DNA from: Xestospongia muta
Lineage: Eukaryota; Porifera; Demospongiae; Haplosclerida; Petrosiidae
DNA: 64,000 bases
Reading direction: 5' to 3'
NCBI GenBank assembly: GCA_963693285.1
Contig: OY848917.1
Span: 8,990,192-9,054,191, forward strand
Each line of letters starts with the position of its first letter. Within the stretch, counting starts at the first letter, position 1. This document shows, piece after piece, positions 1 through 58,853 of the stretch. The position numbers were made by a program, and so were the translations under genes. The notes under the pieces are model-generated. The model searched no databases and was not told where the DNA came from. It saw nothing but the letters and a program-made list of their open reading frames with translations.

Positions 1-2170
1 GTTTCCTTCTCTTCTTTTATACTTGATGTTACTACCTGACACATGGACGTATTTTATGATAGAATGTAAGTCTGATCTATTGTAGTATAATAAGTAACTG
101 TTAATTATTGAAATATGATTATTGTCATAGTTTGTTTATCGTTTTTGTTTCCTTCTCTACCTTTATATTTGATGTTACTACCTGACATATCAATGTTTTA
201 TATGAAAGCCTGTAAGTATGATTTATTGTAATATAATAAGTAACTATTTATTAATGAAATATCGTTATTGTCATAATTTGTTTATCCTTTTTGTTTCCTT
301 CTCTACCTTTATATTTGATGTTACTACCTGACATATCAATATATTATAATAGCTGGTAAGTATGATCTATTGTAATATATTAAGTAACTATTTATTAATG
401 AAATATCGTTATTGTCATAATTTGTTTATCCTTTTTATTTCCTTCTCTACCTTTACATTTGATGTTACTACCTGATATATCAATGTATTATATAATAGTA
501 TGTAAGTATGATCTAATGTAATATAATAAGTAATTATTTATTAATGAAATATGGTTATTTTCATAGTTTGTTTATCCTTTTTGTTTCCTTCTCTCTCTTT
601 ATAATTGATGTTACTACCTGACATATCAATGTATTATATAATAGTATGTAAGTATGATCTAATGTAATATAATAAGTAATTATTTATTAATGAAATATGG
701 TTATTTTCATAGTTTGTTTATCCTTTTTGTTTCGTTCTTTCTATTTATAATTGATGTTACTACCTGACATATCAATGTATTATATAATAGGATGTAAGTA
801 TGATCTATTGTAGTATAATAAGTAACTATTGATTAATGAAATATCGTTATTGTCATGGTTTGTTTGTCCTTTCTGTTTCCTTCTCTCTCTTTATACTTGA
901 TGTTACTACCTGACATATCAATGTATTATATAATAGCCAGTAAGTATGATCTATTGTAATATAATAAGTTACTATTAATTATTGAAATATGGTTATTGTC
1001 ATAGTTTGTTTATTTTTATTGTTTCCTTCTCCACATTTATATTTGATGTTACTACCTGACATATCAATGTATTATAATAGGGTGTAAGTATGATCTATTG
1101 TAATATAATAAGTAACTATTTATTAATGAAATATCGTTATTGTCATAATTTGTTTATCCTTTTTATTTCCTTCTCTACCTTTACATTTGATGTTACTACC
1201 TGACATATCAATGTATTATAATAGCTGGTAAGTATGATCTATTGTAATATAATAAGTAACTATTTATTAATGAAATATCGTTATTGTCATAATTTGTTTA
1301 TCCTTTTTATTTCCTTCTCTACCTTTACATTTGATGTTACTACCTGACATATCAATGTATTATAATAGGGTGTAAGTATGATCTATTGTAATATAATAAG
1401 TAACTATTTATTAATGAAATATCGTTATTGTCATAATTTGTTTATCCTTTTTATTTCCTTCTCTACCTTTACATTTGATGTTACTACCTGACATATGGAT
1501 GTATTATATAATAGGAGGTAAGTCTGATCTATTGTAGTATAATAAGTAATTATTTATTAATGAAATATGGTTATTTTCATAGTTTGTTTATCCTTTTTGT
1601 TTCCTTTTCTACTTTTATATTTGATGTTACTACCTGATATATGGATGTATTATATAATAGTGGGTAAGTCTGATCTATTGTAGTATATTAAGTAACTATT
1701 AATTAATGAAATATGGTTATTGTCATAGTTTGTTTATCCTTTTTGTTTCCTTCTCTACTTTTATATTTGATGTTACTACCTGACATATGGATGTATTATA
1801 TAATAGCCGGTAAGTCTGATCTATTGTAGTATAATAAGTTACTATTAATTATTGAAATATGGTTATTGTCATAGTTTGTTTATCCTTTTTGTTTCCTTCT
1901 CTATCTTTATATTTGATGTTACTACCTGACATATGGATGTATTATATAACAGGATGTAAGTCTGATCTATTGTAGTATAATAAGTAACTATTAATTAATC
2001 AAATATAGTTATTGTCATAATTTGTTTATCCCTTTTGTTTCCTCCTCTACCTTTATATTTGATGTTACTACCTGACATATGGATGTATTATATAATAGCG
2101 GGTAAGTCTGAACTATTGTAGTATAATAAGTAGCTGTTAATTAATGAAATATGGTTATTGTCATAGTTTA
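1..2170 (+). repeat. Tandem array 1: 15 units of ~146 bp with a variable triplet
   Basis: Fifteen head-to-tail units, spaced 144 or 146 bp, are cut off by the left window edge. Each unit has a pyrimidine-rich stretch, then TTACTACCTGAC (CTGAC fits the animal branch-site consensus), an AT-rich stretch ending in AG, three variable bases, GTAAGT, and an AT-rich remainder. Nearly all variation falls in the triplet; a few other sites vary (ATCAATG/ATGGATG, GTATGATC/GTCTGATC). The unit length is not a multiple of three, so the array cannot be one long reading frame. It lies directly upstream of the 16-nt exon and GTPase gene 1, and a related array sits at the same place before gene 2. Confidence 0.97.
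63..2101 (+). other. Fifteen candidate single-codon (3-nt) exons of GTPase gene 1
   Basis: Triplets between AG and GTAAGT begin at: AAT 63, CCT 209, CTG 353, TAT 499, TAT 645, GAT 791, CCA 937, GGT 1081, CTG 1225, GGT 1369, GAG 1515, TGG 1661, CCG 1807, GAT 1953, CGG 2099. All 15 have AG before and GTAAGT after, all are exactly three bases, and none is a stop. If all were joined in phase 0 they would encode NPLYYDPGLGEWPDR, followed by the 16-nt exon (RMELR). Seen: the motif and its variability. Inferred: use as exons. Alternatives are mutually exclusive use, or a non-spliced hypermutable site. The first coding exon of this copy would lie left of the window. Confidence 0.6.
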
Positions 2171-2346: not shown

Positions 2347-2362
2347 AGAATGGAATTAAGAG
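2347..2362 (+). CDS. 16-nt microexon of GTPase gene 1
   Basis: A strong pyrimidine tract ending TTTTCTAG precedes AGAATGGAATTAAGAG, followed by GTCAGT. The 16 bases are identical in the second locus (53,667-53,682), while the flanking introns have drifted. Read as AGA ATG GAA TTA AGA G, the exon gives R-M-E-L-R plus one base. Joined to the acceptor at 3300 it reads G|AG TCT TAT, giving RMELRESYKRAL in frame in both copies. An internal ATG could be an alternative start, which would put the array in the 5' untranslated region. Confidence 0.65.
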
Positions 2363-3299: not shown

Positions 3300-5329
3300 A
3301 GTCTTATAAAAGAGCTCTAGCTGATGGAGAGAGGAATGTACCTTATGCTCGAGTCATGCTTCTCGGCACAGCAGGTGTAGGGAAAACTACCTTTAAGCGA
3401 TCGCTGATGAAACTACAATTTGAGCGTGACACTACCAGCACTGGTCTTTCAGATATATATCGTATTCGCCCGTTTGGCCATGAGTGGAAAACTTTGAAGG
3501 ATGATCAATGGAAAGTAGCCACATATGAAGATGAGTTGGAGGAAATGGCACACTTACTGTCATCTATCGACAAAGATAATTTAGGTGCACATAATCCAAG
3601 TGGTGCAATTAAAGCATCATTGCTTTATGATGCTACTAATGCACAGTTGTCACTTGATGTTTCTGAAGATCAAATTAAAAAAATGGAAGAAAGGAAAGTA
3701 AACAAGATTCTTAGTGAAGCTATTGACTTAATTAATTCTCAAACAACCACCAATACCGATGCTCAACCATTTTTACATATTTGGGATTGTGGTGGTCAAC
3801 CTGCATTTCTTGAACTTCTACCAGCATTTCTCACTCCTCGTACCTTGTTTGTTCTAATGTTTGATGCATCAAGAGGGCTTAATGAAGGATGGAGGTCTGT
3901 GCTGAATAAAGATGGTTATGAAAAATTCCTTGAAGAAGTTAACATGACCACTCTAGAGCTTATGCTTAGTTGGATGGCAAATATTCATGGTCATCTTGCT
4001 AAAGGCAATCAAGGTAAAAGCTTTCCTGGCTATCCTCGAATGCTTTGCATTGGCACTCGTGGAGATCGCCTGGAATCTGAAGAGCAAAGGAGTGCAGTTA
4101 AATCTGAATTGGAGTCTCATATAAAAGGAAAAGCATTCAGAGAGCTCATCGAAGATGTCTTCATAGTTGATAACACAACATCTGGCTTTTTGATGGATGA
4201 AGATCCTAATCTTGCAGACATACGAAGAATCATTAGTACATTTACTTATGAAAAGCTCATTGTCAAGACACCTGTAAGCTGGGTACTCTTTCGGAAGGTA
4301 ATTCAAGCCTTGGAAGAAAATGTTGTGAGTCTTGAAGAAGCTCATATCATTGCATGTGCTTGCAAGATTTCACTTGATAATGTTCCTAAAGTCCTTCTCT
4401 TTTATCATGATTTAGGAGCTTTGTTATTCTATCCTCATATTAAAGGTCTTCACAACAAAGTTGTTGTTAGTCCCAAATATTTTGTTGATGTAATTGGTAG
4501 ACTATTTACTGTAGATCGTTGCAATGTTAAATTTGATGTAATGGATATGTGGGAAAAATTTCAAGAAAATGGCATTTTAATTGAGCCTCTGTATAAGTCT
4601 ATATGGGAACAAAGTGACGATTTTCATCCTGATGCTCTAATAAATCTCTTAGTAGACTTTCGTATAGCTGCTGAAGTTCGTACCAGTATACATCATGATC
4701 CTAGTATCAAGCAGTACTTCGTACCTGCAATCTTGAAATCATTTTCTGGAAATGCTTGCAATGTTTTTCTTGATAGTTATATGCATGCGTCACCTTTACA
4801 CATCATATTTTCAATTGGTTTCGTACCACCAGGTTTTTTTACACGTTTTGTCACTACTATCGCCAGTAATGCTACTTATAAGCTTTGTTTTGATCAAGGT
4901 GTTTATAGAAACAATGTAACTTTTCGCTGTGATGATTCATTTGTTGCTTTCACAGACCTTCAAAGTGCAATACTTGTTGATGTAGTGAGCTATGATCGAA
5001 ATAATTCCATTATGCCATTTGCTGAATTCTGTCAAGACCTCAAAGTACTTATTGAGAAAAGTGCAAAAGCAGTTGAAATAACTCTTAGTAAGTCACAGAC
5101 AACATTTACTGAAGAAACGTCTTATCATGTCACATTTGAAGTTAAATATGTTTGTCAATCAGATAAGTGTACTCATCATCAACAAGATCATCAACATTAT
5201 ATTGAGACTTCTACAAGGCAAACTAGTAGTAACTTTGTCTATTGTGAGAAAAGCGAAAAGAAATTTCCATACCGTCCATTATCTTCAATGGAAGTATACT
5301 GGTTCAAGGATGACATGACAATACAGAAG
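3300..5329 (+). CDS. Roc-COR GTPase gene 1, main exon
   Basis: One large open exon encodes a Ras-like Roc domain followed by a COR-like domain. Visible motifs are the P-loop GTAGVGKTT (nt 3365-3391), WDCGGQ as Walker B/switch II (nt 3782-3799), and CIGTRGD near nt 4045, where the usual NKxD guanine motif is replaced by TRGD. The COR signature follows: VSWVLFRKVIQAL, then LLFYHDLGALLFYP and KVVVSPKYFVDVIG. The exon ends CAGAAG|GTACAC in phase 0. In ROCO proteins this pair couples nucleotide binding to dimerisation. With the death domain encoded downstream, the protein resembles DAPK1-type or NLR-like signalling GTPases. Start chosen at the acceptor shared by both copies; ATG at 3284 is the alternative if unspliced. 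The exon is intact. Confidence 0.88.
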
Positions 5330-5379
5330 GTACACCGTAGAAGTCGATATTGTTTCATATATGACAATTTTGTACTTAG

Positions 5380-6383
5380 GAAACACAGCATATCCTTTCT
5401 GATAACTCGATTCAGAATCACTCTCAGTTAGTATAACAATTAGTTATTAACTAATGTTATTGCCTTTTCAGAGTAGCTGTCAGTAAAGATTCTGTTGCTA
5501 GTAAGGCAGAAACATATGAAAAAGTGGTGAGAATGTTAAAAATTGGCCATTATTTCACATATGCAATTGGTTAACACAATTTTTCAGTTTGTGTTTACAG
5601 TTCTGCTGCTGACAGAAAATGCAATACTTTATTGTGAAAATAATACTTCATTGTAGACCATAAATCTTTAATCTTGGAACCTTACTATATTAAATTTATG
5701 GCTTTTCTCTGCCAGGATGATAGCCTCAGCAAAATTTTATAAATTTTTTTAAAAAGTTTTCATTTTTTAACATTTCTAGATTTGAGATAGGTTTGTATGC
5801 ATGTCAACTGAAGGAAATTGAATTGTCTTGAAACAGATATTTTAACATAATTAATTATAATAATTTTTCCAATAGGTTGGACAAAAGATGCTTAGGAAAG
5901 GTAAAAAAATCCTAGTTAATAAATCTAATGTGGCATATTTGGAATGACAGATTTGACATAGCCATAGTTATGTTATTATGTATTTTCAACTCCATTCTAC
6001 ATTTTTGTATTACATCTAGGTTAACATTAATACATTATTATATTTCCAAACAATGTTATAGGTCGAATTGCTTCATTTTTCAGACGTTTAAAACCACAAC
6101 AATTTAGGTACAAAAGTTCACAACACAGTAAGTTTTTCGGTTATCAAATACAATGTCAAAATTTGCAACATGTGTAACAAAACAGACATGCATGCTGAGC
6201 TTCTAAGTGACATTTTACACTACTATTTCCGCACAAGTTGTTGTTACAGTTAATCATGTAGTTAACTTTATTACATTTGCTTGCATAGCATAGATTGTAA
6301 AACTGTATTTTATTTAGCTCTTCTGGAAGATGTTAGTGATGAGGAAGAAACTAAAGATATGCACAGTCATGATTTGAGTAGAT
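5380..6383 (+). CDS. Five small linker exons of GTPase gene 1
   Basis: Exons inferred by matching frame, splice sites and length with copy 2: 5380-5426 (47 nt, ETQHILSDNSIQNHS), 5472-5526 (55 nt, VAVSKDSVASKAETYEKV), 5876-5900 (25 nt, GQKMLRK), 6062-6127 (66 nt, basic, RIASFFRRLKPQQFRYKSS) and 6318-6383 (66 nt, acidic, LLEDVSDEEETKDMHS). Phases chain without a break: 0, 2, 0, 1, 1, 1. The intron before the first is only 50 nt. The segment joins the COR domain to the death domain with a basic patch and then an acidic patch, probably flexible. No catalytic motif is visible. Confidence 0.7.
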
Positions 6384-7456
6384 GTAAGTATATATAGCTA
6401 TGTGTCTTGTAGTGATGGCATTACAACTAATAAAAGCCTTGATTTAGATAATCATTGACATTTATTGATTATTTTGTGTAACCTCACAAGATAGAAAGAT
6501 TCTGATTCTATGTAATAATATTCAATAAATTTTGAACTTTCCAGGCCATGTGTTTTTTTAAATCAACTAACATCTTGAATTTTTATGTTAACATAGTGTT
6601 TTGATATTGTAATCATTCTATAACTCTTAATGGCAGTTGTCATATCATGCACCACACACCATATTTTCTCAAAAAGTGATTTTCCCGGCCTTCTAATGTT
6701 ATTGAAATAAAAGTGACCCTCAAAGAAACTTTAATTTTCTTTAAAGTTTTCACTGTTTACCAATTAATCCAATGTTCATGATGTATTAAAACACTTGTCT
6801 CAAATAGTAGCCTCCTTTCAGGTGGATCATTAACATTGTAATGATAGTTACTACTCATGGAAATATGGTACTGATAATACAGGAGATCAAGAAAGCTTCA
6901 TTGTGAAAAAGGTTGAACATTGGATGATGTATGAAAAATAATCACACTAAGATTATTATGCATATTGAAATATTTATGGTAGGAATGTTTCTGGTATGCA
7001 ATTGTGTTCAAAATTTTTTCACCATATTAATTTTTATACAAAACCTTTTGTAATGAGAAAGTTTCCTTATCTACAGTATGAAGATATCATCATATAGTAG
7101 TATTGTATATTGTAGATGCCTTTTATTGTCTTATAATTAGGCTACATTATAATGTCTATAATATTGAAGGTGATTATAGTTGTAGCTATTAATTATTGGC
7201 ATTTATGCTTTTACATCAGTTTTCTGTCTTATGAGGTATAAACTATTCAGATTACCATGCTATTTACATATTAGATACTTTATGTTCAATCAGAACAAGT
7301 GCCATATCTGTAATTATGTTAGTAGACCTTTCTATCAGTAGACCCAGATAGTAAGGGCGTTCTGTAAGGACTTTATAGAAGTGGTTAATTTTAAAAGAAA
7401 AAACATATAACACTCAGTTTAATCAGTCATTAGAAATTGAATGTTGTTTTTTCTAG

Positions 7457-7752
7457 ATATTTTAAAAGAAATTCCCAATCACAAGGAAGCAGTCACACTT
7501 TTGACAAATATTAGTGCTGATTGGGAAGTGATTGGTATAGCCCTCGGTGTTTCACAAAATGATTTGAAAGGCTTACAACCAGAAAGCATCAATATAACAG
7601 TCAAGCTTTCCCGAGTAATAGCTAAATGGATGGAAACTGAGTCATCATCACCTGTTTCCTGGGAGACACTGATTTCTGCCATTGAGGGGCCTATTGTTAA
7701 TAACAAACAGAAGGCTAAGGAGATACGTAATTACCTCTATAGTCAACATTAA
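7457..7752 (+). CDS. Death-domain terminal exon of GTPase gene 1
   Basis: The exon follows acceptor TTTTTTCTAG and ends with TAA. It encodes about 97 residues starting ILKEIPNHKEAVTLL. Death-fold features are W..IG.ALGVS...L..L in the first half and SPVSWETLISAIEGP, then KAKEIRNYL, near the end, matching the conserved Trp and helix pattern of the family. Death domains pair with each other to recruit signalling partners in apoptosis or innate immunity. Copy 2 has a homologous exon at 58,561-58,853 with more changes than in the GTPase exon. The length is full for a death domain. Confidence 0.82.
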
Positions 7753-18600: not shown

Positions 18601-18829
18601 TTGTTTTAGTGTAAATGTTAGTTCCTATCTAGAGATGGTCAGTAGACTGTGGCCAAATTCACTGCATACTACATGAAAGAATTATATAAACATTCCATAG
18701 TAATTATCTTCAATTTCTTTGTTTATTTAACAAATGTAATCCATAGAATCTCTGCATATATATCCATTACACTATGTTAACTGTCTGTATATGATCAATA
18801 CTGACATCAGAGGATCCAGACCAACAATC

Positions 18830-33999: not shown

Positions 34000-35044
34000 A
34001 GAGACATAGATAGAGAGATGACTGTGCTTGGTCTTAGGTGAGATCTTTGGTGGCGAGGTGGATAAGAAGAAACACAATGGTCCTGCAGCCAATAGAGAAC
34101 CATGAGGTAAAAGAGTGAGTGTTAGACTAGCAGAAAGCTAATAACAAGAGTTTATAACAACAAATGGCCACCTTTGAATCAGTTATATTAATACCTTCAG
34201 GCAAATTTGTGATGGACTTCAATTTATCATGTAGTTCTACAAGTAATTTTCATAAAAACAGTTACATCTTTAAGAAATTGTAGACTAAGGTAGTTTGCAC
34301 ATCTCTTAGATTTTAAAATCCTTGTAGCAGCAGTCATTTTTCTTTGAGATATGAGTGGATAAGGTTATGTCTGCTTTATGGAATAAGTCTGTTTCAGAAT
34401 TCAACAAGTGGTCAGGGTCATCTGCAGTTTGTCTTGAAAGATTGGAGACAAACAGATTAAAGAACAGCAGATTTCATGAATAAGTCATATACAGTTTCTG
34501 TAAACTTTGACAACAGTTAATGCAGGTTGCATGTCTGTGTGAATGGACCTCTTGGATATGTTTAATCAATTACATGAGACTTAATAGATAAAGCAAGCAG
34601 AGTAGGTAGACCTTGACACATCCAAGATCCATGGGCTACTTGTAGAAGGAAGATAATCAGCACTTCAGATTCAGCACAATTTCTAATTTCTAAATAATAC
34701 CCAACATACGCGCATGCGCAATAGCAATTTTTTCAACTGCATCAACCGAACTGGTTCTTTCTGACGGAGTGTAGTGCTGTGTTGGAAAATTTGTTGGCTG
34801 ATGGACGTTTGTGTTCCTATTATTCAAAGGAATCCCCCAAAATTTTTGGACAACTTACAATGAGTGATGGATAGCTTAAAAAGTTGCTGAGAAAATACCT
34901 GATAGTGATAAAGTCAAGCTGAAAGATATTATAGACAGTGCAACATTTACTCAGAAGGTAAATATATTGATCTGTTGTTTTTGTTATGATAATATTATAC
35001 CATTATCTTCAGTAAGAAAACAGTAGTCTTGACATCAATAGCCT
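34000..35044. other. Non-coding with a possible decayed exon
   Basis: Around 34,770-34,958 a plus-strand reading gives LLADGRLCSYYSKESPKIFG and, after frame changes, DSATFTQK before GTAAAT. No family recognised. A palindromic GCGCATGCGC lies near 34,710. Confidence 0.3.
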
Positions 35045-36595
35045 GGGTCACCAGCCAACTACTGGAAAAACTTCAATATTGTACCTATTCCCAAATTGAA
35101 AACCTCTTTTTCGTCCCCTTCAGACTATCGTCCAATCTCTCTACTTTCCCTCCCAAGTAAGATCTTGGAATGTCACATATTTAACTATCTGTATGAATTT
35201 TGTTCTGCTCACAATATCCTCTCTAATTATCAGTTTGGTTTCCGACCAGGATTCTCAACTAAAACAGCTATATTATCTACTATCAATTATTGGTTTTCTT
35301 CACTGAATTGCAAAAATTCCGTCTGTGCAGTTTTCTTTGATCTCGCAAAAGCATTTGACTCTGTCCATCACTTGACTCCTTATCTTCGCTCGACCTTTCT
35401 TCCTCTTCTTTTGTCTTGGCTCCATAGCTACCTGCAAGGCCATACTCAACAAGTAATCATAAATGGTTCTCTATTTTCTAAATCTGAAGTCACCTCTAGT
35501 GTGCCTCAAGGTTCCATTCTCTGGCCTCTCTTATGCATCATCTATATAAATGACATTGCTAAACTGTCCCTCTTCTCTTCATCCACCCTCACTCTTTATG
35601 CTGATGATATTCTTCTCTCGCAAGAAATTTCTTCTACAACCTCAATGTCCACTGTTCAGTCCGATATCAACCTTATTTCATCATGGATTACCTCTCATCA
35701 TCTTACCATCAACTCCAAAAAAACCAAATACATGATTGTCTCTTGTAAGTCTCCCTCTTTTCTAACCTCCCTCCCTCCTTTTTTCTTAGATGGTTCTCAA
35801 CTTGAACAAGTCAAATCTTTTAAATACCTTGGTTTTATTATTATCACTAATTTATCATGGTCTCCTCACATCCAATTGGTCCACTCTAAAACTCATCAAA
35901 CTATTGGAATCATCTACTGTAATTTCTATAAGATGCTTCTCCTTATACTCTTCTCACTTTGTATCGCTCTCTTGTCATTCCCTATTTTTCTTACTGCTCC
36001 TCTGTTTGGGACCCACCCGTATCTTCCACTAATGCTAAAATTCTCAAGAAAACCAACACTTTGCTCTAAATGATTACTCATCTCTCCTCTCAACGTTTAA
36101 CCTTCCGACCCTCTCAACTCGTCGCTCTATTTCGAAATTATGTCTTCTTTATAAAATCACTAACAACCTCCTCTACCTTCCTTCCGATATTTTCATTCAC
36201 AAACCTCTGCAAGTTATGCTTCTCATCACTTTGATCCTCTCACCTTTACCATCACTTTTTCTCGCTCATCTGCTTCACAAAACTCATTTGTCCCTTCTGT
36301 TCTCTCTCTGTGGAACTCACTTCCTTATCATGTAAAATCTAGCTCATCTCTAAACACTTTTAAATCTAAAATAAATATGCTTTTTTACTAACCATCAACA
36401 CACCATCACTTATCACACTAAAACCTATCATATACAATCAGTCACTTATTCTATCACTGTACTATATATGATACTATATCCTGTACTTTAATACCTTAAT
36501 CCTGTATTATTAATTGTTGTTCTATTCAGTTTGTGCCCTTTAAACTAGCAGTTGCTATTGGGCATTCATTTTGTCAATAAAAAAACTACAAATGT
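35045..36595 (+). mobile_element. Truncated LINE reverse transcriptase
   Basis: Non-LTR reverse transcriptase core on the plus strand. Visible: NFNIVPIPKLK, SDYRPISLLSLPSKILE, FGFRPGFSTKTAI, VFFDLAKAFDSVHH, SVPQGSILWPLL, and the catalytic LYADDILL near 35,595. This order fits the Jockey/CR1/L2 group. The frame is open at 35,096-36,073; the C-terminal tail continues in other frames to about 36,390 (LTFRPSQL, then PSVLSLWNSLP-like pieces). The 3' end is near 'cattttgtcaataaaaaaac' at 36,590. The endonuclease and 5' part are missing, and GVLGPLL is degraded to SILWPLL, so the copy is dead. Confidence 0.85.
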
Positions 36596-42577: not shown

Positions 42578-44868
42578 TTAGCCCTTCAGGTATAGTGAAT
42601 CACTCAAACTGCCCAAAAATTGATCTGCAGTGATCACAAACATCAATAAATTCATTTCCAATCTGATGTGGGTCCAGCTTGTTGAGTCATTCTTTGTGCA
42701 CATGTAACACACCATCACGATATTTAGTTGACATAGGGTCATGGTGGGCCTTGGGTAGGTCTTCACTCTTCTCAAAGAACTGAAGAATCTCTCACTTGTT
42801 ACGTTAGATACAGGCATGACTAGGATCAACTTCACCAAGGTGATAACCTTAGAGTAGAGTGATCAACCCACCTTGGACAATCCTGTAGATACTTGACAAC
42901 ATAGTGCAGTGACACATTGTTATCAGGATTTAGGTTAGTAGACAAAGTCTGTAGTTGCATCCTCAGGTTAGCCATGTGAATGTCAGGAGAATAATGTTCT
43001 GTGATAGTAGCCAACTCCTTATCATGACTTTCCATCCTACATGCCTTCAGCAAGAGTTGCTCCATGGTGGAATATGTCCTATACACAGGTTGATCAAAGT
43101 GATCTTCCAGGCAAGCCACAATCAGGTCGATAGTTGTGTTGTATACAATAACTCTATATATAGTAGTTTTCTGGTGTATTGCAAAACTCAACTGAAGCCT
43201 TGCAATCTTCATAGCAACCTGGTCGCTTTCGCTTACATGAAAGACATGGCTCTGACACATCAGCTTTGCTGCTTTAGTTGTGACTGCTTCCCAAAAACCT
43301 ACATACATAGTGTCTCCTCACAGTGACTTTAAGTTTTTTTCACAAGTCTAGCCCCTTCCTGTCCTTGTGCAGCGGATATATTATCCTTCTGCAGCATCTT
43401 CCTAAGATTATCAGTATGCATAGAACCATTTCTGCTAGTGAGACAGCATAGTAGTATTCAAATGTACTCATTTGAGCTGCTACTTTGTATTCATGCCCTG
43501 GTTTCGATATCCTTGACATCATCATAGCATAGCTCCCAAAGCTCCTGCAAAACAGTGTAATTGTCTTGCACACTCCTCAGTGCATCCGCTTCTGCAGTTC
43601 TACATGTGGGACATAGCACAGAACACCAAGTGAGCCCGGTTGAATCTCTGCCTTTAATTTCTGGAAAGCAGCATCACGTTTTGGTGAGAACTTGATCAGG
43701 TTCAACAATTCATGTGTAGTATCGATTGCATTTTTCAGTACTGAGACTCCCTTAATGGTGTCACTGGCTGCTAAGTTCAAGGCATGATCATAGTAATGTG
43801 TGTAATATGCATGGGCTCCTTCTCCAGTATCTGTTTGGCTACACCTGATTTTACTCCCAACATTCTACCTGCTCCACTGTATCATTGACCCATATGTCTG
43901 TGGATATCCAAATTCAGAGCAAGGATAACATTCTTGAGCACAGTGACAATTGTCTTGGTATCAGTTGTGTCCAGCTGATAAAAGCTCACAAACTTTTCAT
44001 GCACTTGCAACTCATCATCAACATAGCGAAATACAGTAATCAGTTGCTCCTTGTTGCTGGCATTGGTAGTCTTTCCACCATAATTGTGTAGTACTCTACA
44101 CTCTGCAGTTCCATAATTATCTCTCATGGACAAGCATCTGCCCTTAATTTGAGCATTTCATTCTGTATGTCTTTTGTGGTTTAAATCTCGTTCTTTCATG
44201 AATTTATGCATTATCCTCAGCCCTGAGCAGGAGAGATTGCATGAAGTTGCTGTTATCCTCCATCCCATCCCCTTTAAGTGGAAGGCCCTGCCTAGCCAGA
44301 AATTTCACATTCTGCAAGATAGTTAGTAATATGTGCCAGTTTCCAGGCTTTTTGGTTGCATGACCAATATCTAAAAGCTCATCTATATTGTTTGGTTTGG
44401 GTTGGAAGAACATAGAGGGCAGAATGAGCTTCGATGTGATGATCTGATTGCATGTGCTTAAGTATTGATTGCATGTGCTTACGTATCTTAGCTACACAAT
44501 CTTTCCAACTGCTGAATCCAGTTCCAATCTGCATAAGGGAAAGAAAAAATCTGTACTGTAGCTACCTCACCATACACTATACTATGCATATGCCTTAGCT
44601 ACTAATACAGGTATTATACATACACTAAACTGCACCCTAGACATAACACAACACCCAATACACACACACAATTATTGTGAATACTGGCACTTACAAATGC
44701 TGGGTCTAGATGCTTGGACTGAAATATCCTATGCTGCTGTACGGCTGTCAGACAGGTATGACAGAGAATAACATCCTTTTCCTCATCATAGGGAAGAAAT
44801 GGATAATCAACAAGCCACTGAGATTGGCAAGATCTTTCTCTAGTACCAATTTCCTTCTTAAGAAACAC
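42578..44868 (-). pseudogene. hAT transposase relic with TTF-type finger
   Basis: Minus strand, N to C: WLVDYPFLPYDEEKDVILCHTC (TTF-type finger, about 44,820), NVKFLARQGLPLKGDGMEDN (44,300), ASNKEQLITVFRYVDDELQV (44,050), a degraded G(A)GRMLG segment (43,870), NLAASDTIKGVSVLKNAID (43,770), then LCQSHVFHVSESD..., and finally PVSNVTSERFFSSLRRVKTY (42,800), the hAT C-terminal dimerisation motif. This is the ZMYM-like hAT type common in invertebrates. At least five frame breaks show that it is inactive. Terminal repeats were not identified. Confidence 0.8.
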
Positions 44869-44879
44869 AAAGTTTTGAT

Positions 44880-45180
44880 ATGTAAGCAGTTGTTTGAGTA
44901 ATTCTATTGGAGACTCTCGCTTCTACTTTTACTTTTCTTTGGCTCCCACTAAGTAAGAAATTTATTTTAAAGCAATGTGTCCATGCTATTGGGTTGAAGA
45001 ATTTGCCTACCAAGACCGATACACAAGTCTGCAACAAACATTTTATTAATGCTTCTGGACGACAATTGAAACCTGACGAAGTTCCTTCTCTATATCTACC
45101 AGTTCTGTTTACATCTCAAATTCCAACTAATTTCTATTTCTTCCTCGCACTTTCATGATTTAAAAAAATTTCAATTAATG
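44880..45180 (+). pseudogene. Second THAP-domain relic
   Basis: The start (GCAGTTGTTTGAGTAATTCT) matches the THAP relic at 40,985. This copy keeps the C-terminal half: KQCVHAIGLKNLPTKTDTQV, CNKHFINASGRQLKPDEVPS, YLP, matching the C..HF...... VPs..lP end of a THAP finger. The hAT relic lies between the two THAP copies on the opposite strand, consistent with nested insertion or a local duplication. Confidence 0.65.
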
Positions 45181-46449: not shown

Positions 46450-46492
46450 AAACATGGCTACAGGACTGACTAAGAAGAACAAAAAGTGGACT
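46450..46492 (+). CDS. Candidate first coding exon of GTPase gene 2
   Basis: Pyrimidine-rich TTTTCTTTAG precedes AAACATGG, a good animal start context. The exon encodes MATGLTKKNKKWT and ends on a whole codon before GTAAGT. It is the only such exon I found between the hAT/THAP relics and array 2. Its phase-0 end is what a series of phase-0 single-codon exons would need, and the 16-nt exon after the array also starts in phase 0. The lysine-rich peptide has no recognised motif. The link to the array (2.4 kb downstream) is inferred, not shown. Confidence 0.5.
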
Positions 46493-48849: not shown

Positions 48850-48921
48850 CATAGTCTCTTTTTACCTTTATCTCTTAACATTTGATGTTACTACCTGATA
48901 TATGGATTTATTATATAGTAG

Positions 48922-51900
48922 GAGGTAAATAACTATTAACTAATAAAATATGATTAATATCATGGTATTTTTTAGTCCTTTTGTTTCCTTCTTTATATTT
49001 GAACTTACAACCTGACATACAGATGTGTTATATAATAGCACATAATTGTGATATATTGTAGTATAATAAGTAACTATTAACTAATGAAATATGATTATTT
49101 TGAAAGTTTGTTTAGACCTTTTGTTTCCTTCTCTTCTCTTATATTTCATGTTACTACCTGGCCTATTGATGTATTATTATATAATAGCCAATAAGTCTGA
49201 TCTATGCTAGTATAATAAGTAAACTATTAACTATAAAATTGGTTTTCATCATTATTATATTTGGGTGGTTCTTGGTGTAACTTGACTGTGATGACATCAT
49301 AATGAAATGACACATAGTGATGTCATCAATGACACATGTGATGTCATCATAGGACAAGTTGTTACATCATCAGTCAAGTTACACCAAAAAGCACCCTTTA
49401 TACTTAATGATATTACCCGATCATTTGGTATATTATATAATAGTGGGTAAGTATGATCTATTGTAGTATAATAAGTAACTATTAATTAATGAAATATAGT
49501 TATTGTCATAGTTTGTTTATCCTTTTTGTTCCCTTCTCTACCTTTATATTTGATGTTACTACCTGACATATGGATGTATTATATAATAGCCAGTAAGTCT
49601 GATCTATTGTAGTATAACAAGTAACTATTAATTATTGAAATAAAGTTATTGTCTTAGTTTGTTTATTTCCTTTGTTTTTTTCTCTACCTTTATATTTGAT
49701 GTTACTACCTGACATATGGATGTATTATATAATAGACTGTAAGTCTGATCTATTGTAGTATAACAAGTAACTATTAATTAATGAAATATGGTTATTGTCA
49801 TAGTTTGTTTATCCTTTTTGTTTCCTTCTCTACCTTTATATTTGATGTTAATACCTGACATATGGATGTATTATATAATAGACTGTAAGTCTGATCTATT
49901 GTAGTGTAACAAGTAACTATTAATAAATGAAATATGGTTATTGTCATGGGTTTAGTTGTCATGGGTTTAATTGTCATGGTTATGTCGTTTATCCTTTTTG
50001 TTTCCTTCTCTACCTTTATATTTGATGTTAATACCTGACATATGGATGTATTATATAATAGGTGGTAAGTATGATCTATTGTAATATAATAAGTTACAAT
50101 TAATTATTGAAATATGGTTACTGTCATAGTTTGTTTATCCCTTTTGTTTTCTTCTCTACCTTTATATTTGATGTTACTACCTGACATATTGATGTATTAT
50201 ATAATAGAAGGTAAGTCTGATCTATTGTAGTATAATAAGTAACTATTAGTTAATGAAATATAGTTATTGTCATAGTTTGTTTATCCCTTTTGTTTCCTTC
50301 TCTACCTTTATATTTGATGTTACTACCTGACATATGGATGTATTATATAATAGCTAGTAAGTCTGATCTATTGTAGTATAATAAGTAACTATTAATTAAT
50401 GAAATATAGTTATTGTCATAGTTTGTTTATGCCTTTCGCTTCCTTCTCTACCTTTATATTTGATGTTACTACCTGACATATGGATGTATTATATAATAGG
50501 TGGTAAGTCTGATCTATTGTAGTATAATAAGTAACTATTAATTAATGAAATATAGTTATTGTCATAGTTTGTTTATCCCTTTTGTTTCCTTCTCTACCTT
50601 TATATTTGATGTTACTACCTGACATATGGATGTATTATATAATAGCCAGTAAGTCTGATCTATTGTAGTATAATAAGTAACTATTAATTAATGAAATATG
50701 ATTATTGTTATAGTTTGTTTATGCCTTTTGTTTCCTTCTCTACCTTTATATTTGATGTTAATACCTGACATATGGATGTATTATATAATAGACTGTAAGT
50801 CTGATCTATTGTAGTGTAACAAGTAACTATTAATAAATGAAATATAGTTATTGTCATAGTTTGTTTATGCCTTTCGTTTCCTTCCCTTCCTTTATATTTG
50901 ATGTTACTACCTGACATATGGATGTATTATATAATAGGAGGTAAGTCTGATCTATTGTAGTATAATAAGTAACTATTAATTAATGAAATATAGTTATTGT
51001 CATAGTTTGTTTATCCCTTTTGTTTCCTTCTCTACCTTTATATTTGATGTTACTACCTGACATATGGATGTATTATATAATAGCCAGTAAGTCTGATCTA
51101 TTGTAGTATAATAAGTAACTATTAATTAATGAAATATGATTATTGTCATAGTTTGTTTATGCCTTTTGTTTCCTTCTCTACCTTTATATTTGATGTTAAT
51201 ACCTGACATATGGATGTATTATATAATAGCTGGTAAGTATGATCTATTGTAATATAATAAGTAACTATTAATTATTGAAATATAGTTATTGTCTTAGTTT
51301 GTTTATTTCCTTTGTTTTTTTCTCTACCTTTATATTTGATGTTACTACCTGACATATGGATGTATTATATAATAGACTGTAAGTCTGATCTATTGTAGTG
51401 TAACAAGTAACTATTAATAAATGAAATATGGTTATTGTCATAGTTTGTTTATCCTTTTTGTTTCCTTCTCTACCTTTATATTTGATGTTAATACCTGACA
51501 TATGGATGTATTATATAATAGCTGGTAAGTATGATCTATTGTAATATAATAAGTTACAATTAATTATTGAAATATGGTTACTGTCATAGTTTGTTTATGC
51601 CTTTCGTTTCCTTCTCTTCCTTTATATTTGATGTTACTACCTGACATATGGATGTATTATATAATAGTCGGTAAGTCTGATCTATTGTAGTATAATAAGT
51701 AACTATTAATTAATGAAATATAGTTATTGTCATAGTTTGTTTATCCCTTTTGTTTCCTTCTCTACCTTTATATTTGATGTTAATACCTGACATATGGATG
51801 TATTATATAATAGTCGGTAAGTCTGATCTATTGTAGTATAATAAGTAACTATTAATTAATGAAATATAGTTATTGTCATAGTTTGTTTATCCTTTTTGTT

Positions 51901-53422
51901 CCCTTCTCTACCTTTATATTTGATGTTACTACCTGACATATGGATGTATTATATAATAGCCAGTAAGTCTGATCTATTGTAGTATAACAAGTAACTATTA
52001 ATTATTGAAATATAGTTATTGTCTTAGTTTGTTTATTTCCTTTGTTTTTTTCTCTACCTTTATATTTGATGTTACTACCTGACATATGGATGTATTATAT
52101 AATAGCCAGTAAGTCTGATCTATTGTAGTATAATAAGTAACTATTAATTAATGAAATATGATTATTGTTATAGTTTGTTTATCCCTTTTGTTTCCTTCTC
52201 TACCTTTATATTTGATGTTACTACCTGACATATGGATGTATTATATAATAGTCGGTAAGTCTGATCTATTGTAGTATAATAAGTAACTATTAATTAATGA
52301 AATATAGTTATTGTCATAGTTTGTTTATCCCTTTTGTTTCCTTCTCTACCTTTATATTTGATGTTACTACCTGACATATGGATGTATTATATAATAGCCA
52401 GTAAGTCTGATCTATTGTAGTATAATAAGTAACTATTAATTAATGAAATATGATTATTGTTATAGTTTGTTTATGCCTTTTGTTTCCTTCTCTACCTTTA
52501 TATTTGATGTTAATACCTGACATATGGATGTATTATATAATAGACTGTAAGTCTGATCTATTGTAGTGTAACAAGTAACTATTAATAAATTAAATATGGT
52601 TATTGTCATAGTTTGTTTATCCTTTTTGTTTCCTTCTCTACCTTTATATTTGATGTTAATACCTGACATATGGATGTATTATATAATAGCTGGTAAGTAT
52701 GATCTATTGTAATATAATAAGTTACAATTAATTATTGAAGTATGGTTACTGTCATAGTTTGTTTATGCCTTTCGTTTCCTTCTCTTCCTTTATATTTGAT
52801 GTTACTACCTGACATATGGATGTATTATATAATAGTCGGTAAGTCTGATCTATTGTAGTATAATAAGTAACTATTAATTAATGAAATATAGTTATTGTCA
52901 TAGTTTGTTTATCCCTTTTGTTTCCTTCTCTACCTTTATATTTGATGTTAATACCTGACATATGGATGTATTATATAATAGTCGGTAAGTCTGATCTATT
53001 GTAGTATAATAAGTAACTATTAATTAATGAAATATAGTTATTGTCATAGTTTGTTTATCCTTTTTGTTCCCTTCTCTACCTTTATATTTGATGTTACTAC
53101 CTGACATATGGATGTATTATATAATAGCCAGTAAGTCTGATCTATTGTAGTATAACAAGTAACTATTAATTATTGAAATATAGTTATTGTCTTAGTTTGT
53201 TTATTTCCTTTGTTTTTTTCTCTACCTTTATATTTGATGTTACTACCTGACATATGGATGTATTATATAATAGCCAGTAAGTCTGATCTATTGTAGTATA
53301 ATAAGTAACTATTAATTAATGAAATATGATTATTGTTATAGTTTGTTTATCCCTTTTGTTTCCTTCTCTACCTTTATATTTGATGTTACTACCTGACATA
53401 TGGATGTATTATATAATAGTCG
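48922..53422 (+). other. Thirty-one candidate single-codon exons of GTPase gene 2
   Basis: Triplet starts: GAG 48922, CAC 49039, CCA 49188, TGG 49444, CCA 49590, ACT 49736, ACT 49882, GTG 50062, AAG 50208, CTA 50354, GTG 50500, CCA 50646, ACT 50792, GAG 50938, CCA 51084, CTG 51230, ACT 51376, CTG 51522, TCG 51668, TCG 51814, CCA 51960, CCA 52106, TCG 52252, CCA 52398, ACT 52544, CTG 52690, TCG 52836, TCG 52982, CCA 53128, CCA 53274, TCG 53420. AG precedes all 31. Units 2 and 3 have lost the donor (ATAATT, ATAAGT) and unit 1 has GTAAAT. None is a stop. In order the residues are EHPWPTTVKL, then VPTEPLTLSS, then PPSPTLSSPPS. Exon use is inferred. Confidence 0.6.
49263..49396. mobile_element. 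134-bp MITE inside array 2
   Basis: The ends GGGTGGTTCTTGGTGTAACT and AGTTACACCAAAAAGCACCC are inverted repeats over about 25 bp with three mismatches. The interior has repeated TGATGTCATC motifs. It lies between array units 3 and 4 and explains their 256-bp spacing. No transposase; the superfamily is not assigned. Confidence 0.8.
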
Positions 53423-53666
53423 GTAAGTCTGATCTATTGTAGTATAATAAGTAACTATTAATTAATGAAATATGGTTGTTGTCATAGTTTATTAATTTTA
53501 GAGCTTCTTACTTTTAATTGAAAACTTAGCTTTTTATTTGTATTAACGTTTCTATGACAATAATTATTATAAAATTTTAATATTTGTAATCTATATTTGT
53601 ATGTATTAATAACATGTAACTGTAATAATGCTTACTTTAATGTTTTTTATATTCTCTCTTGTTTAG

Positions 53667-53682
53667 AGAATGGAATTAAGAG
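53667..53682 (+). CDS. 16-nt microexon of GTPase gene 2
   Basis: Identical 16 bases to 2347-2362, between TCTTGTTTAG and GTCAGT. It encodes RMELR plus one base and joins in frame to the exon at 54,643 (G|AG TCT TAT, giving ELRESYKRALADGE). Confidence 0.65.
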
Positions 53683-54642: not shown

Positions 54643-56672
54643 AGTCTTATAAAAGAGCTCTAGCTGATGGGGAGAGGAATGTACCTTATGCTCGAGTCAT
54701 GCTTCTCGGTACAGCAGGTGTAGGGAAGACTACCTTTAAGCGATCACTGATGAAACTACCATTTGAGCGTGACACTACCAGCACTGGTCTTTCAGATATA
54801 TATCGTATTCGCCCATTTGGCCATGAGTGGAAAACTTTAAAGGATGATCAATGGAAAGTAGCCACATATGAAGATGAGGTGGAAGAAATGGCGCACTTAC
54901 TGTCATCTATCTACAAAGATAATTTAGGTGCACATAATCCAAGTGATGCAATTAAAGCATCATTGCTTTATGATACTGCTAGTGCACAGTTGTCACTTGA
55001 TGTTGCTGAGGATCAAATTGAAGAAATGGAAGAAAGGAAAGTAAACAAGATTCTTAGTGAAGCTATTGACTTAGTTAATTCTCAAACAACCACCAATATC
55101 GATGCTCAACCATTTTTACATATTTGGGATTGTGGTGGTCAACCTGCATTCCTTGAACTCCTACCAGCATTTCTCACTCCTCGTACCTTGTTTGTTCTAA
55201 TGTTTGATGCATCAAGAGGGCTTAATGAAGGATGGAGGTCTGTGCTGAATAAAGATGGTCATGAGAAATTCCTTGAAGAAGTTAACATGACCACATTAGA
55301 GCTTATGCTTAGTTGGATGGCAAATATTCATGGTCATCTTGCTAAAGGCAATCAAGGTAAAAGCTTTCCTGGCTATCCTCGAATGCTTTGCATTGGCACT
55401 CGTGGAGATCGCCTGGAATCTGAAGAGCAAAGGAGTGCAGTTAAATCTGAATTGGTGTCTCATATAAAAGGAAAAGCATTCAGAGAGCTCATCGAAGATG
55501 TCTTCATAGTTGATAACACAACATCTGGCTTTTTGATGTTTGAAGACCATAGTCTTGCAGACATACGAAGAATCATTAGTACATTTACTTATGAAAAGCT
55601 CATTGTCAAGACACCTGTAAGCTGGGTACTCTTTCGGAAGGTAATTCAAGCCTTGGAAGAAAATGTTGTGAGTCTTGAAGAAGCTCATATCATTGCACGT
55701 GCTTGCAAGATTTCACCTGATGATGTTCCAAGAGCCCTTCTCTTTTATCATGATTTAGGAGCTTTGTTATTCTATCCTCATATTAAAGGTCTTCACAACA
55801 AAGTTGTTGTTAGTCCCAAATATTTTGTTGATGTTATTGGTAAACTATTTACTGTAGATCGTTGCAATGTTAAATTTGATGTAATGGATATGTGGGAAAA
55901 ATTTCAAGAAAATGGCATTTTAATTGAGCCTCTGTATAAATCTATATGGGAACAAAGTGACGATTTTCATCCTGATGCTCTAATAAATCTCTTAGTAGAC
56001 TTTCGTATAGCTGCTGAAGTTCGTACCAGTATACATCATGATCCTAGTAACAAGCAGTACTTCGTACCTGCAATCCTGAAATCATTTCCTGGAGATCCTT
56101 ATAAAGTTTTCCCTGATAGTTACATGCACGCGTCACCTTTACACGTCATATTTTCAATTGGTTTCGTACCACCAGGTTTTTTTACACGCTTCGTCACTAC
56201 TATCGCCAGTAATGCTACTTATAAGCTTTGTTTTGATCATGGTGTTTATAGAAACCATGTAACTTTTCGCTATGAAGATTCATTTGTTGCTTTCACAGAC
56301 CTTCAAAATGCAATACTTGTTGATGTAGTGAGCTATGATCGAAATAATTCCATTATGCCATTTGCTGAATTCTGTCAAGACCTCAAACTGCTTATTGAGA
56401 AAAGTGCAAAAGCAGTTGAAATAACACTTAGTAAGTCACAGACAACATTTACTGAAGAAACGTCTTATCATGTCACTTTTGAAGTTAAATATGTTTGTCA
56501 ATCAGATGAGTGTACTCATCATCAACGAGATCATCAACATTATATTGAGACTTCTACAAGGCAAACTAGTAGTAACTTTGTTTACTGTGAAAAAAGTGAA
56601 AAGAAATTTCCATACCGTCCATTATCTTCAATGGAAGTATACTGGTTCAAGAATGACATGACAAATCAGAAG
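54643..56672 (+). CDS. Roc-COR GTPase gene 2, main exon
   Basis: Close paralogue of the exon at 3300-5329; the proteins differ at only a few dozen of about 680 positions by eye. The same motifs are present: GTAGVGKTT, WDCGGQ, CIGTRGD (in place of NKxD), VSWVLFRKVIQAL, LLFYHDLGALLFYP, VVVSPKYFVDVIG. The exon ends CAGAAG|GTATAC in phase 0, as in copy 1. The body is conserved while the upstream triplet arrays of the two genes share no clear alignment, which suggests the GTPase part is constrained and the N-terminal peptide free or driven to vary. An internal ATG at 54,627, just before the exon, is the alternative start without splicing. Confidence 0.88.
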
Positions 56673-56720
56673 GTATACTGTAGATTTCACTATTGTTTCA
56701 TTAAACTCTTTTGTACTTAG

Positions 56721-57631: not shown

Positions 57632-58560
57632 GTAAGTATACATAGCTATGTATCTGTTTATTATAAACTTATAGTTATGGCATTACAACTAATAAAAACC
57701 TTGATTTAGATAATTATTATTGATGTTTATCAATAATTTTGTATAACCTCACAAGTTAGAAAGGTTCTGATTCTATATAATAATTGTTCAATAAATAATG
57801 AACTTTCTAGGCCATGTGATTTGTAAATCAACAGGCTCACATCTTTAATTTTAATGTTAACATAGTGTTTTCGTCTTGTATTCATTCCATAACTCTTTTA
57901 ATGACAATTATCATGTCATGCACCACACATACTATATTTCCTCAAAAATTGTCTCCCATGCCTTCTTATTGTTTATTAGAATTAAAGAAGCCATGAAAGT
58001 AACTGCAAAGAATTTTCTTCATTTAAAGTTTTCATTGTTTACTGATAAATAGAATGTTGCCTTACAAAATGTCATGATGTCTTATATCAAAATAAACACT
58101 GCCCTTGAATAATAGCCTCCCTCAGGTGGATCATGATAACATAGTATTCACAGCTGCTATTTAAGGAAGTATAGTACTATGAAGGTGTCACTATGATATA
58201 GTTTTAGATATTGTACATACCTTTGAGGTCTCATAATGAGGTGACATAATCATGCCTATTATTTGAAAGTGTCTATAGTTGTATATAATAATTATTATTG
58301 CATTTGTGTTTTTACCTTAATTTTCCATCTTATAACCTTGTTACTTAATAACTATTAATAAAATAGTTCAAATTACTATATACTATTTATATATACTTTT
58401 AGTACCATATCCATAATTATGTTACTATACCTTTCTATCAGTGGATCCAGATAGTAGGGACATTTTGTAAGGACTTTATAGAAGTGGTTAATTTCTGAAA
58501 GCAAGAACATATAAGACTCAGTTTAATCAGTCATTAGCAATGAACTATTGTTTTTTCTAG

Positions 58561-58853
58561 ATATTTTAAAGGAAAGTCCCAATCATGATGAAGCACTTTC
58601 ACAGTTGGCAGATATCAGTGCTAAATGGAAAGAGATAGGTTTGGCCCTCAAGGTTTCATGCAATGAGTTAGATGGCCTACGACGTGATCACAGCAGTATA
58701 ACAGTCAAGCTTTCAGAAGTAATAACTCTATGGATAGAATCTGAGTCATCGCCTGTTTCCTGGGAGACACTGATCTCTGCCATTGAGGGGCCTATTGTTA
58801 AAAACAAAAAGAAAGCTAAGGAGATACGTGATTACCTCTATAGACAACATTAA
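58561..58853 (+). CDS. Death-domain terminal exon of GTPase gene 2
   Basis: Acceptor TTTTTTCTAG, end at TAA. Encodes ILKESPNHDEALSQLADISA, KWKEIGLALKVSCNELDGL, then WIESESSPVSWETLISAIEG and KAKEIRDYLYRQH. Same death-fold pattern as copy 1 (W..IG.AL, SPVSWETL). It is more diverged from copy 1 in the first half than in the last 35 residues. Confidence 0.82.

Follow-up and report, generated by a model that had tools for sequence, protein, structure and literature searches.

Tandem arrays of candidate single-codon exons ahead of GTPase and ankyrin genes in the sponge Xestospongia muta

Analysis of a 64,000-nucleotide stretch of Xestospongia muta DNA (the window) and of related loci elsewhere in the genome revealed tandem arrays in which each repeat very probably consists of an intron plus a one-codon exon, the array thereby writing a variable peptide at one residue per repeat. 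The candidate exons are 3 nt long, avoid stop codons in one phase only, are hypervariable, and lie in frame within a recognizable gene context. In the spliced transcript predicted for the loci of the window, a head exon (MATGLTKKNKKWT in locus K) would be followed by the variable peptide, a 16-nt exon, a Roc-COR GTPase and probably a Death domain; in two other loci, M and N, the head exon and variable peptide would lead into ankyrin-repeat exons. The triplets would be spliced in order and all included. The exons, all 3 nt long and in phase 0, preserve the frame whichever and however many of them are used, and the arrays are thus free to grow, shrink and recombine. We suppose that the introns are homogenized through unequal exchange and conversion while the encoded residues are under strong diversifying selection, which would leave the introns alike and the codons different.

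The array peptide probably serves as a part that confers specificity on proteins of innate immunity or self-recognition. With clearly less assurance than for the one-codon exons themselves, we lean toward a broader reading in which rows of such exons, thousands across the genome, encode hypervariable stretches of innate-immune-type proteins, N-terminal in Roc-COR GTPases and ahead of ankyrin repeats or between them, and in which recognition sequences evolve by gain, loss and shuffling of single codons with the frame intact; an early-branching lineage of animals would then possess an unrecognized means of diversifying its receptors. Should the triplets prove to be spliced and translated, the variable segment evolves codon by codon on a repeated scaffold that is removed as intron, and confirmation by RNA would establish a novel mode of encoding variable peptides. 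Tens of 3-nt exons in succession would also put the limits of exon size and of splice-site pairing to the test, supply an animal that lacks adaptive immunity with a new source of receptor variation, with a possible bearing on self versus non-self discrimination in sponges, and point to a gap in gene annotation, because 3-nt exons are easily missed.

Arrays and their gene context

The array analyzed in most detail belongs to locus K, whose features in the window are as follows.

46450..46492, + strand: head exon, with an ATG at 46454, 13 codons (MATGLTKKNKKWT) and a phase-0 donor GTAAGT at 46493
48855..49443, + strand: leading degraded units (GAG followed by GTAAAT, CAC by ATAATT, CCA by ATAAGT)
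49444..53422, + strand: 28 live single-codon exons, from TGG (49444-49446) to TCG (53420-53422)
53667..53682, + strand: 16-nt exon (AGAATGGAATTAAGAG), phase 0 to 1, donor GTCAGT
54643..56720, + strand: Roc-COR GTPase exon, from a predicted acceptor (AAAATACAG then AG) to the stop codon of the ORF
58527..58853, + strand: Death-like ORF downstream of the GTPase exon, putatively in the same transcript

The initial annotation had described 31 units at 48855-53490, and these indeed comprise 28 with exact AG-NNN-GTAAGT after three degraded ones; within the degraded stretch a short inverted repeat has been inserted at about 49274-49385. Read in order, the 28 triplets give WPTTVKLVPTEPLTLSSPPSPTLSSPPS. 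Pfam matches to the GTPase (PF08477, 38.4 bits; PF16095, 46.8 bits) both exceeded their cut-offs, placing a Roc GTPase domain before a COR domain, as in Roco proteins. The Death-like ORF matched PF00531 at 21.9 bits (E 2e-4), just below the cut-off of 22.6, and a C-terminal Death domain may be joined to this GTPase. The preceding paralogue, locus J, is only partly contained in the window.

1..2170, + strand: 3' part of the array, last triplet ending at 2101
2347..2362, + strand: 16-nt exon
3300..5431, + strand: Roc-COR GTPase exon, from a predicted acceptor
7441..7752, + strand: ORF similar by eye to the Death-like ORF of locus K

The 15 units with exact AG-NNN-GTAAGT reported earlier for positions 1-2170 were recovered, and the full array, which starts upstream of the window, holds 28 live units under the live-unit rule given below. 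The ORF at 7441..7752 had no Pfam match on its own. A CTGAC ahead of the AG, previously noted in most units, was found in 27 of the 28 exact units at 48855-53490 and 13 of the 15 at 1-2170; among these 28 + 15 exact units its distance to the AG is 20 nt, but 18 nt in 4 units.

Fourteen loci (A-N) were chosen by the 13-codon head exon, at ≤3 mismatches over 45 nt. All 14 contained an array after the head exon, arranged tandemly and head-to-tail, with 25-101 live units per locus, for instance 26 in G and 101 in B; the repeat is mostly 146 bp (introns about 143 nt), and about 136 bp in loci M and N (introns 133 nt). The 16-nt exon, which has 16 genome copies at ≤3 mismatches, all on the + strand, follows the array in 12 of the 14, and in all 12 the frame runs into the Roc-COR ORF, except for one stop triplet (TAG) in locus L. 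In loci M and N, 33-codon exons come after the head exon and array, and three of these exons matched the ankyrin family PF00023 at 25.9-28.3 bits (cut-off 21.1). Two arrays located first by the unit pattern had head-exon matches 2.2-2.3 kb upstream on the same strand. For a further array, on C2, no head exon was found in the 5 kb on its upstream side, and the array start may lie beyond; a Death-like reading of an ORF beside it was dropped for want of a Pfam match.

Of loci A-L, 10 share the dead CAC unit and 11 the dead CCA unit, and with the leading GAG unit set aside, the first live triplet is TGG in 11; in locus L the donor of the TGG unit is damaged. The donor of the leading GAG unit is degraded in A, B, C, G and J and intact in E.

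Length, phase and variability of the triplets

We defined a live unit by an AG, a GT and a donor differing from GTAAGT at no more than 2 positions, so that AG and GT were part of the definition and exon length was not. This rule replaced two unit detectors whose output included some intervals not 3 nt long, in one of them often from an AG misplaced around TAATAATAG. Among 674 units detected at the 14 loci, 39 had no usable donor or acceptor and 635 were live, presenting in sequence the very short exon between AG and GT that characterizes a microexon. The earlier claim of one triplet per repeat between splice signals held for every live unit: with 0-9 nt allowed, all 635 intervals were 3 nt. 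Genome-wide, the exact unit pattern gave 2,910 intervals of 3 nt, 8 of 0-2 nt (all 2 nt, all TT) and 9 of 4-12 nt, 8 of which contain AG-NNN-GTAAGT. The pattern is not due to chance, as reversed controls gave 0 matches versus 461 for the locus K unit type and 0 versus 7,376 for a wider type at ≤3 mismatches. Identity as an Rfam or tRNA element was rejected (0 Rfam matches at gathering score, 0 tRNA genes), as was a virus-borne motif, viral_contigs giving no exact match.

Stop codons agree with the one-codon-exon reading: 1 of 635 triplets is a stop in the predicted phase, versus 22/621 and 54/621 when the phase is shifted, and 14/635, 15/621 and 22/621 on the reverse strand. The expected number in phase 0 was 25.9 for 630 units, with a minimum of 15 in 2,000 within-locus column shuffles; the first 100 of the 7,376 genome places matching the wider pattern contained 0 stops versus 10.8 expected. 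C is scarce at the last exon base (11/635, compared with 197 at the first base and 154 at the second), and T outnumbers C 152:7 in split boxes; scarcity of C is expected next to a splice donor. The phase-specific avoidance of stops and the rarity of last-base C support spliced, translated codons.

The triplets proved as variable within conserved flanks as first described, and constitute on average over the 14 loci the three most diverse of 123 positions (pi 0.69, 0.71 and 0.49; flank mean 0.175, flank maximum 0.47). In single loci some flank positions equal or exceed the third triplet position, as in locus D (flank maximum 0.72), and mean flank diversity in locus K was 0.06. The diversity and shuffling analyses used 630 of the 635 units; the 5 dropped were leading GAG units with donor GTAAATAA. 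pN/pS was 0.43 for the GTPase versus 1.89 for the triplets. Blocks of units have been duplicated along with their triplets, and neighboring triplets are therefore not independent. Array turnover is fast, to judge from two loci that are 99.4% identical over the first 500 nt of intron 1 and give unrelated readings of 101 and 26 residues. Helical periodicity, examined as a mark of genuine protein, was not general among the array peptides (0.02 in locus B, 0.064 in L, 0.10 in N, at least 0.20 in the other 11 loci).

Alternative readings

The most serious competitor, which has the one-codon-exon core in common with the serial reading, holds that one or few units enter each transcript, by mutually exclusive or stochastic choice, producing a combinatorial library of short peptides. 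Any subset of the live units, all 3 nt in phase 0, would be in frame, competition between near-identical splice signals is to be expected, and the 3-bp micro-exon of Drosophila homothorax (hth) is reported to be alternatively spliced (PMC7392893). Against this, the shared TGG as first live triplet in 11 of loci A-L suggests that position matters, and we regard non-serial use as possible, though less likely than inclusion of all units in order. We consider it unlikely that a dedicated mechanism rewrites the triplet, in place of selection combined with homogenized introns. Such targeted hypermutation would fit the comparison of units within loci, where 108 pairs have identical 130-nt flanks and yet 29 of them differ in the triplet, 7 at all three of its bases, as well as a triplet rate per base ~54 times that of the flanks (225 pairs with at most one flank difference, which are not independent; pairs with >14 ungapped upstream differences were dropped). 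However, stops are avoided, third positions differ less than the others (127 one-base differences, versus 342 at the first and 412 at the second, in pairs with ≤6 flank differences), and each locus keeps its own third-base habit: A 31, T 29, G 1 in M; T 31, A 15, C 3 in N; G in 51 of 54 in I and 74 of 88 in L.

A non-coding satellite, lying in an intron or upstream of a GTPase that starts from its own ATG, with triplet diversity as a mutational curiosity at a conserved motif, is more improbable still. The array is a clean tandem repeat, and an in-frame ATG precedes the first full GTPase codon by 60 nt (by 18 nt in J) in 12 of 12 loci, so that an array-free start is possible; the idea that loci D and G are unable to start internally was rejected, an in-frame ATG further upstream existing in 12 of 12. 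As these loci are close paralogues, the shared ATG is weak evidence of its use. Seven database relatives lie at 81-93%, and the three examined begin with MIIFQ or MFENT, without an array-encoded part. Nevertheless, the satellite was rejected on the stop avoidance specific to phase and strand, and the strict 3-nt length, the in-frame head and 16-nt exons (12/12 loci) and the two loci with the same head exon and array ahead of ankyrin exons likewise speak against it. Least credible is an ordinary exon split codon by codon through inserted mobile introns. Introners are known in several eukaryotes, and the units do resemble near-identical introns 3 nt apart; but the head-to-tail layout in the 14 loci, the duplication of unit blocks with their triplets and the number of live units per locus disagree with insertion. 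This origin was rejected on the unrelated readings of paralogues with up to 99.4% identity over the first 500 nt of intron 1, which should share an ancestral coding sequence.

Comparison with known systems

No tandem single-codon exons appeared among the literature matches listed, a scope outside which subscription papers and preprints fall. Dscam-like clusters consist of tandem duplicates of domain-sized exons with mutually exclusive splicing; the sponge arrays share with them tandemly duplicated, variable exons in one gene, but the sponge repeat is almost wholly intron and its exon a single codon. Amphimedon queenslandica P0037 (COR/Death), named Death domain-containing protein in the database, is a related GTPase with 45% identity and an extra N-terminal stretch before Roc; by difference, no array is known for it from the protein sequence compared here. 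Drosophila homothorax has a 3-bp micro-exon (PMC7392893) and Arabidopsis APC11 a single-nucleotide exon (PMC4674806), likewise exons of at most one codon between normal splice signals, but single ones, whereas the sponge genes would have tens of tandem hypervariable ones each. The schistosome micro-exon genes (PMC10526429) are also made of very short exons, of varied lengths (3-81 bp) and with introns up to 5 kbp; the sponge arrays do not combine varied short exons with long introns, having one exon length (3 nt) and near-identical short tandem introns, in Roc-COR or ankyrin genes. In the fungal HNWD NLRs (PMC4986451), concerted evolution keeps the repeats similar, diversifying selection acts on set codons and repeat numbers differ, a combination in recognition genes that parallels the sponge arrays; the conserved part of the repeat, however, is protein in the fungal NLRs (WD; also ANK and TPR) and intron in the sponge.

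Arrays and the Roc-COR gene family

Scanning of the Xestospongia muta genome (158 Mb, 28 contigs) bore out both arrays of the initial annotation: the proposed AG-NNN-GTAAGT units at 48855–53490 comprise 28 exact units preceded by three degraded ones, and the 15 units at 1–2170 are all exact and form the end of a longer array. The window corresponds to 8,990,192–9,054,191 of contig C1. The exon at the head of the former array (locus K) has a sequence found at 14 genome places (≤3 mismatches; loci A–N), and an array lies downstream of it in all 14 loci, each of which was read.

Head exon, locus K: 46454–46492, 13 codons

In loci A–L the order is head exon, array, 16-nt exon and Roc-COR ORF, with a reading frame of 697–717 residues from the 16-nt exon onward; a common frame links head exon, triplets, 16-nt exon and GTPase exon in 12/12 loci, except for one TAG triplet in locus L. 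The putative acceptor of the GTPase exon is AAAATACAG/AG. The 16-nt exon has 16 genome copies, at 15 COR loci of the contig C1 cluster and one on C12 (Pfam search); 12 of these were read and the other four covered by pattern and Pfam searches. Among these four, a head exon was matched for two (C1:8,491,509 and 8,764,504); for the two with COR at 8,554,376 and 8,826,498, neither head-exon search gave a match. A profile search for COR-A scored at least 150 of 261 candidates, many of them clustered (e.g. C5:6277553–6912946).

A looser head-exon pattern matched 19 exact and 11 one-mismatch places genome-wide; since its reversed control likewise matched 30 places in total, this count by itself is no proof. 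Fourteen of the 19 exact places are loci A–N. Two of the other five (C1:28,763,080 and 30,108,278) lie 2.3 and 2.2 kb upstream, on the same strand, of the nearest units among the matches listed, and for the one-mismatch places C1:7,269,521, 9,196,778 and 29,526,273 the nearest units among those matches are ~7, 15 and 8 kb downstream. A partly read array on contig C2 contains 33 unit matches with 0 stops; no head exon occurs in 5 kb of sequence retrieved toward its upstream end, and a unit-like match at the extreme edge of that stretch suggests that this array begins outside it.

Length, stop content and variation of the triplets

The exact 3-nt spacing claimed for the arrays was kept in 635/635 live units (those with usable donor and acceptor) of loci A–N when 0–9 nt were permitted; 39 further detected units had no usable donor or acceptor. 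Genome-wide, exact AATAG-N-GTAAGTGTGATATAATG occurred 2,910 times with 3 nt, eight times with 0–2 nt and nine times with 4–12 nt, and a wider unit pattern matched 7,376 places (≤3 mismatches; control, 0). All eight shorter units share a 2-nt interval, TT, which would shift the frame if spliced there, and 8/9 longer ones carry a doubled donor following an intact AG-NNN-GTAAGT.

AATAG-TT-GTAAGT units (8, exact pattern): C1:8152199; C4 (6 places); C7:7204793
Doubled-donor units (GTAAGTGTAAGT or GTAAGTGTGTAAGT), intact triplet preceding: C1:15627543–15648229, 15894620; C8:4286895, 4287340

As predicted if each triplet were a one-codon exon, stops were scarce in phase 0 (1/635) compared with phases 1 and 2 (22/621 and 54/621); the reverse strand gave 14/635, 15/621 and 22/621. 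Shuffling columns within loci (630 units) gave an expectation of 25.9 phase-0 stops, with a minimum of 15 across 2,000 shuffles. When each distinct codon was counted once per locus, there was 1 stop versus 8.9 expected, and 100 listed of the 7,376 wider-pattern places had 0 versus 10.8. The base before the donor was G in 311, T in 231, A in 82 and C in 11 of the 635 units. Third bases in four-fold boxes were G 203, T 79, A 53 and C 4, and split boxes ending in T or C had T 152 and C 7; few C next to the donor is what a splice constraint would give.

The triplets also proved hypervariable as described, their positions being the most diverse of 123 when averaged over loci. Triplets differed in 29/108 within-locus pairs with identical 130-nt flanks and in 53/117 with one flank difference, pairs that are mutually dependent and whose flanks conversion may have homogenised. 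pN/pS was 1.89 for triplets (within loci) versus 0.43 for the GTPase exon (among 12 loci). Loci B (101 triplets) and G (26 triplets) are 99.4% identical over the first 500 nt of intron 1, but their best peptide alignment contains 17 identical residues versus 16.1 in shuffles; loci D and K (99.2% over the same 500 nt) share 11 versus 10.2. Array peptides of the 14 loci showed no general helical periodicity, which counts against the coding reading.

Proposed splicing and alternative explanations

Judged from sequence, each repeat probably leaves one codon by splicing: it would be removed through its own AG, branch-like CTGAC and GTAAGT. With all exons 3 nt long and in phase 0, units could be gained, lost or exchanged without loss of frame. 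Most of the pattern would follow from diversifying selection on residues against homogenisation of introns. A targeted mutator that rewrites triplets is less likely, because third positions vary less and each locus keeps its own third-base habit. Counting against the array reading are the TAG in locus L, an in-frame ATG just 5′ of the GTPase exon in 12/12 loci, and, of seven relatives at 81–93% identity, the three read (P0001, P0002, P0005), which begin MIIFQ or MFENT, without an array. The named proteins among the best 120 of 517 matches are from the sponge Amphimedon queenslandica (42–46% identity); of five read, P0037 and P0113 have an additional stretch before Roc, and P0068, P0092 and P0116 have none.

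Exons of 3 nt (PMC7392893) and 1 nt (PMC4674806) have been described, as have schistosome micro-exon genes with exons from 3 bp upward (PMC10526429). Fungal NLR repeats show both concerted evolution and diversifying selection at set codons (PMC4986451), resembling the history proposed for the arrays. Among the matches listed in searches of open-licence papers, none dealt with tandem single-codon or microexon arrays.

Ankyrin contexts and other elements

Loci M and N differ in that head exon and array are followed by 33-codon phase-0 ankyrin exons (PF00023) and not by Roc-COR; in locus M one such exon sits within the array. A 35-place ankyrin-exon pattern had 274 genome matches (≤3 mismatches; control, 0), some interleaved by position with wider-pattern units among the matches listed. 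At the places below, such exons sit amid one-codon array stretches, as though the array filled gaps between ankyrin repeats.

Ankyrin exons between array stretches (by position; sequence read for locus M only): C1:7200200; 28752804–28759039; 30089506–30105455, minus strand

The Roc-COR, Death-like and ankyrin contexts suggest a role in innate immunity or self-recognition.

Other elements in the window were as follows.

18740–19876, plus strand: 378-residue ORF that looks cysteine-rich by eye and matched no Pfam family at E 0.001
35042–36073, plus strand: reverse transcriptase ORF (PF00078, 109 bits), probably a non-LTR element
42578–44922, minus strand: probable hAT transposase ORFs (PF05699, 26.2 bits in one of three tested)
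49274–49385: insertion resembling a small MITE, located in the leading degraded units and bounded by 15-nt terminal inverted repeats (GGTGTAACTTGACTG ... CAGTCAAGTTACACC)

Unit spacing is widened to 237–262 nt at the point of this last insertion in 9/12 of loci A–L.
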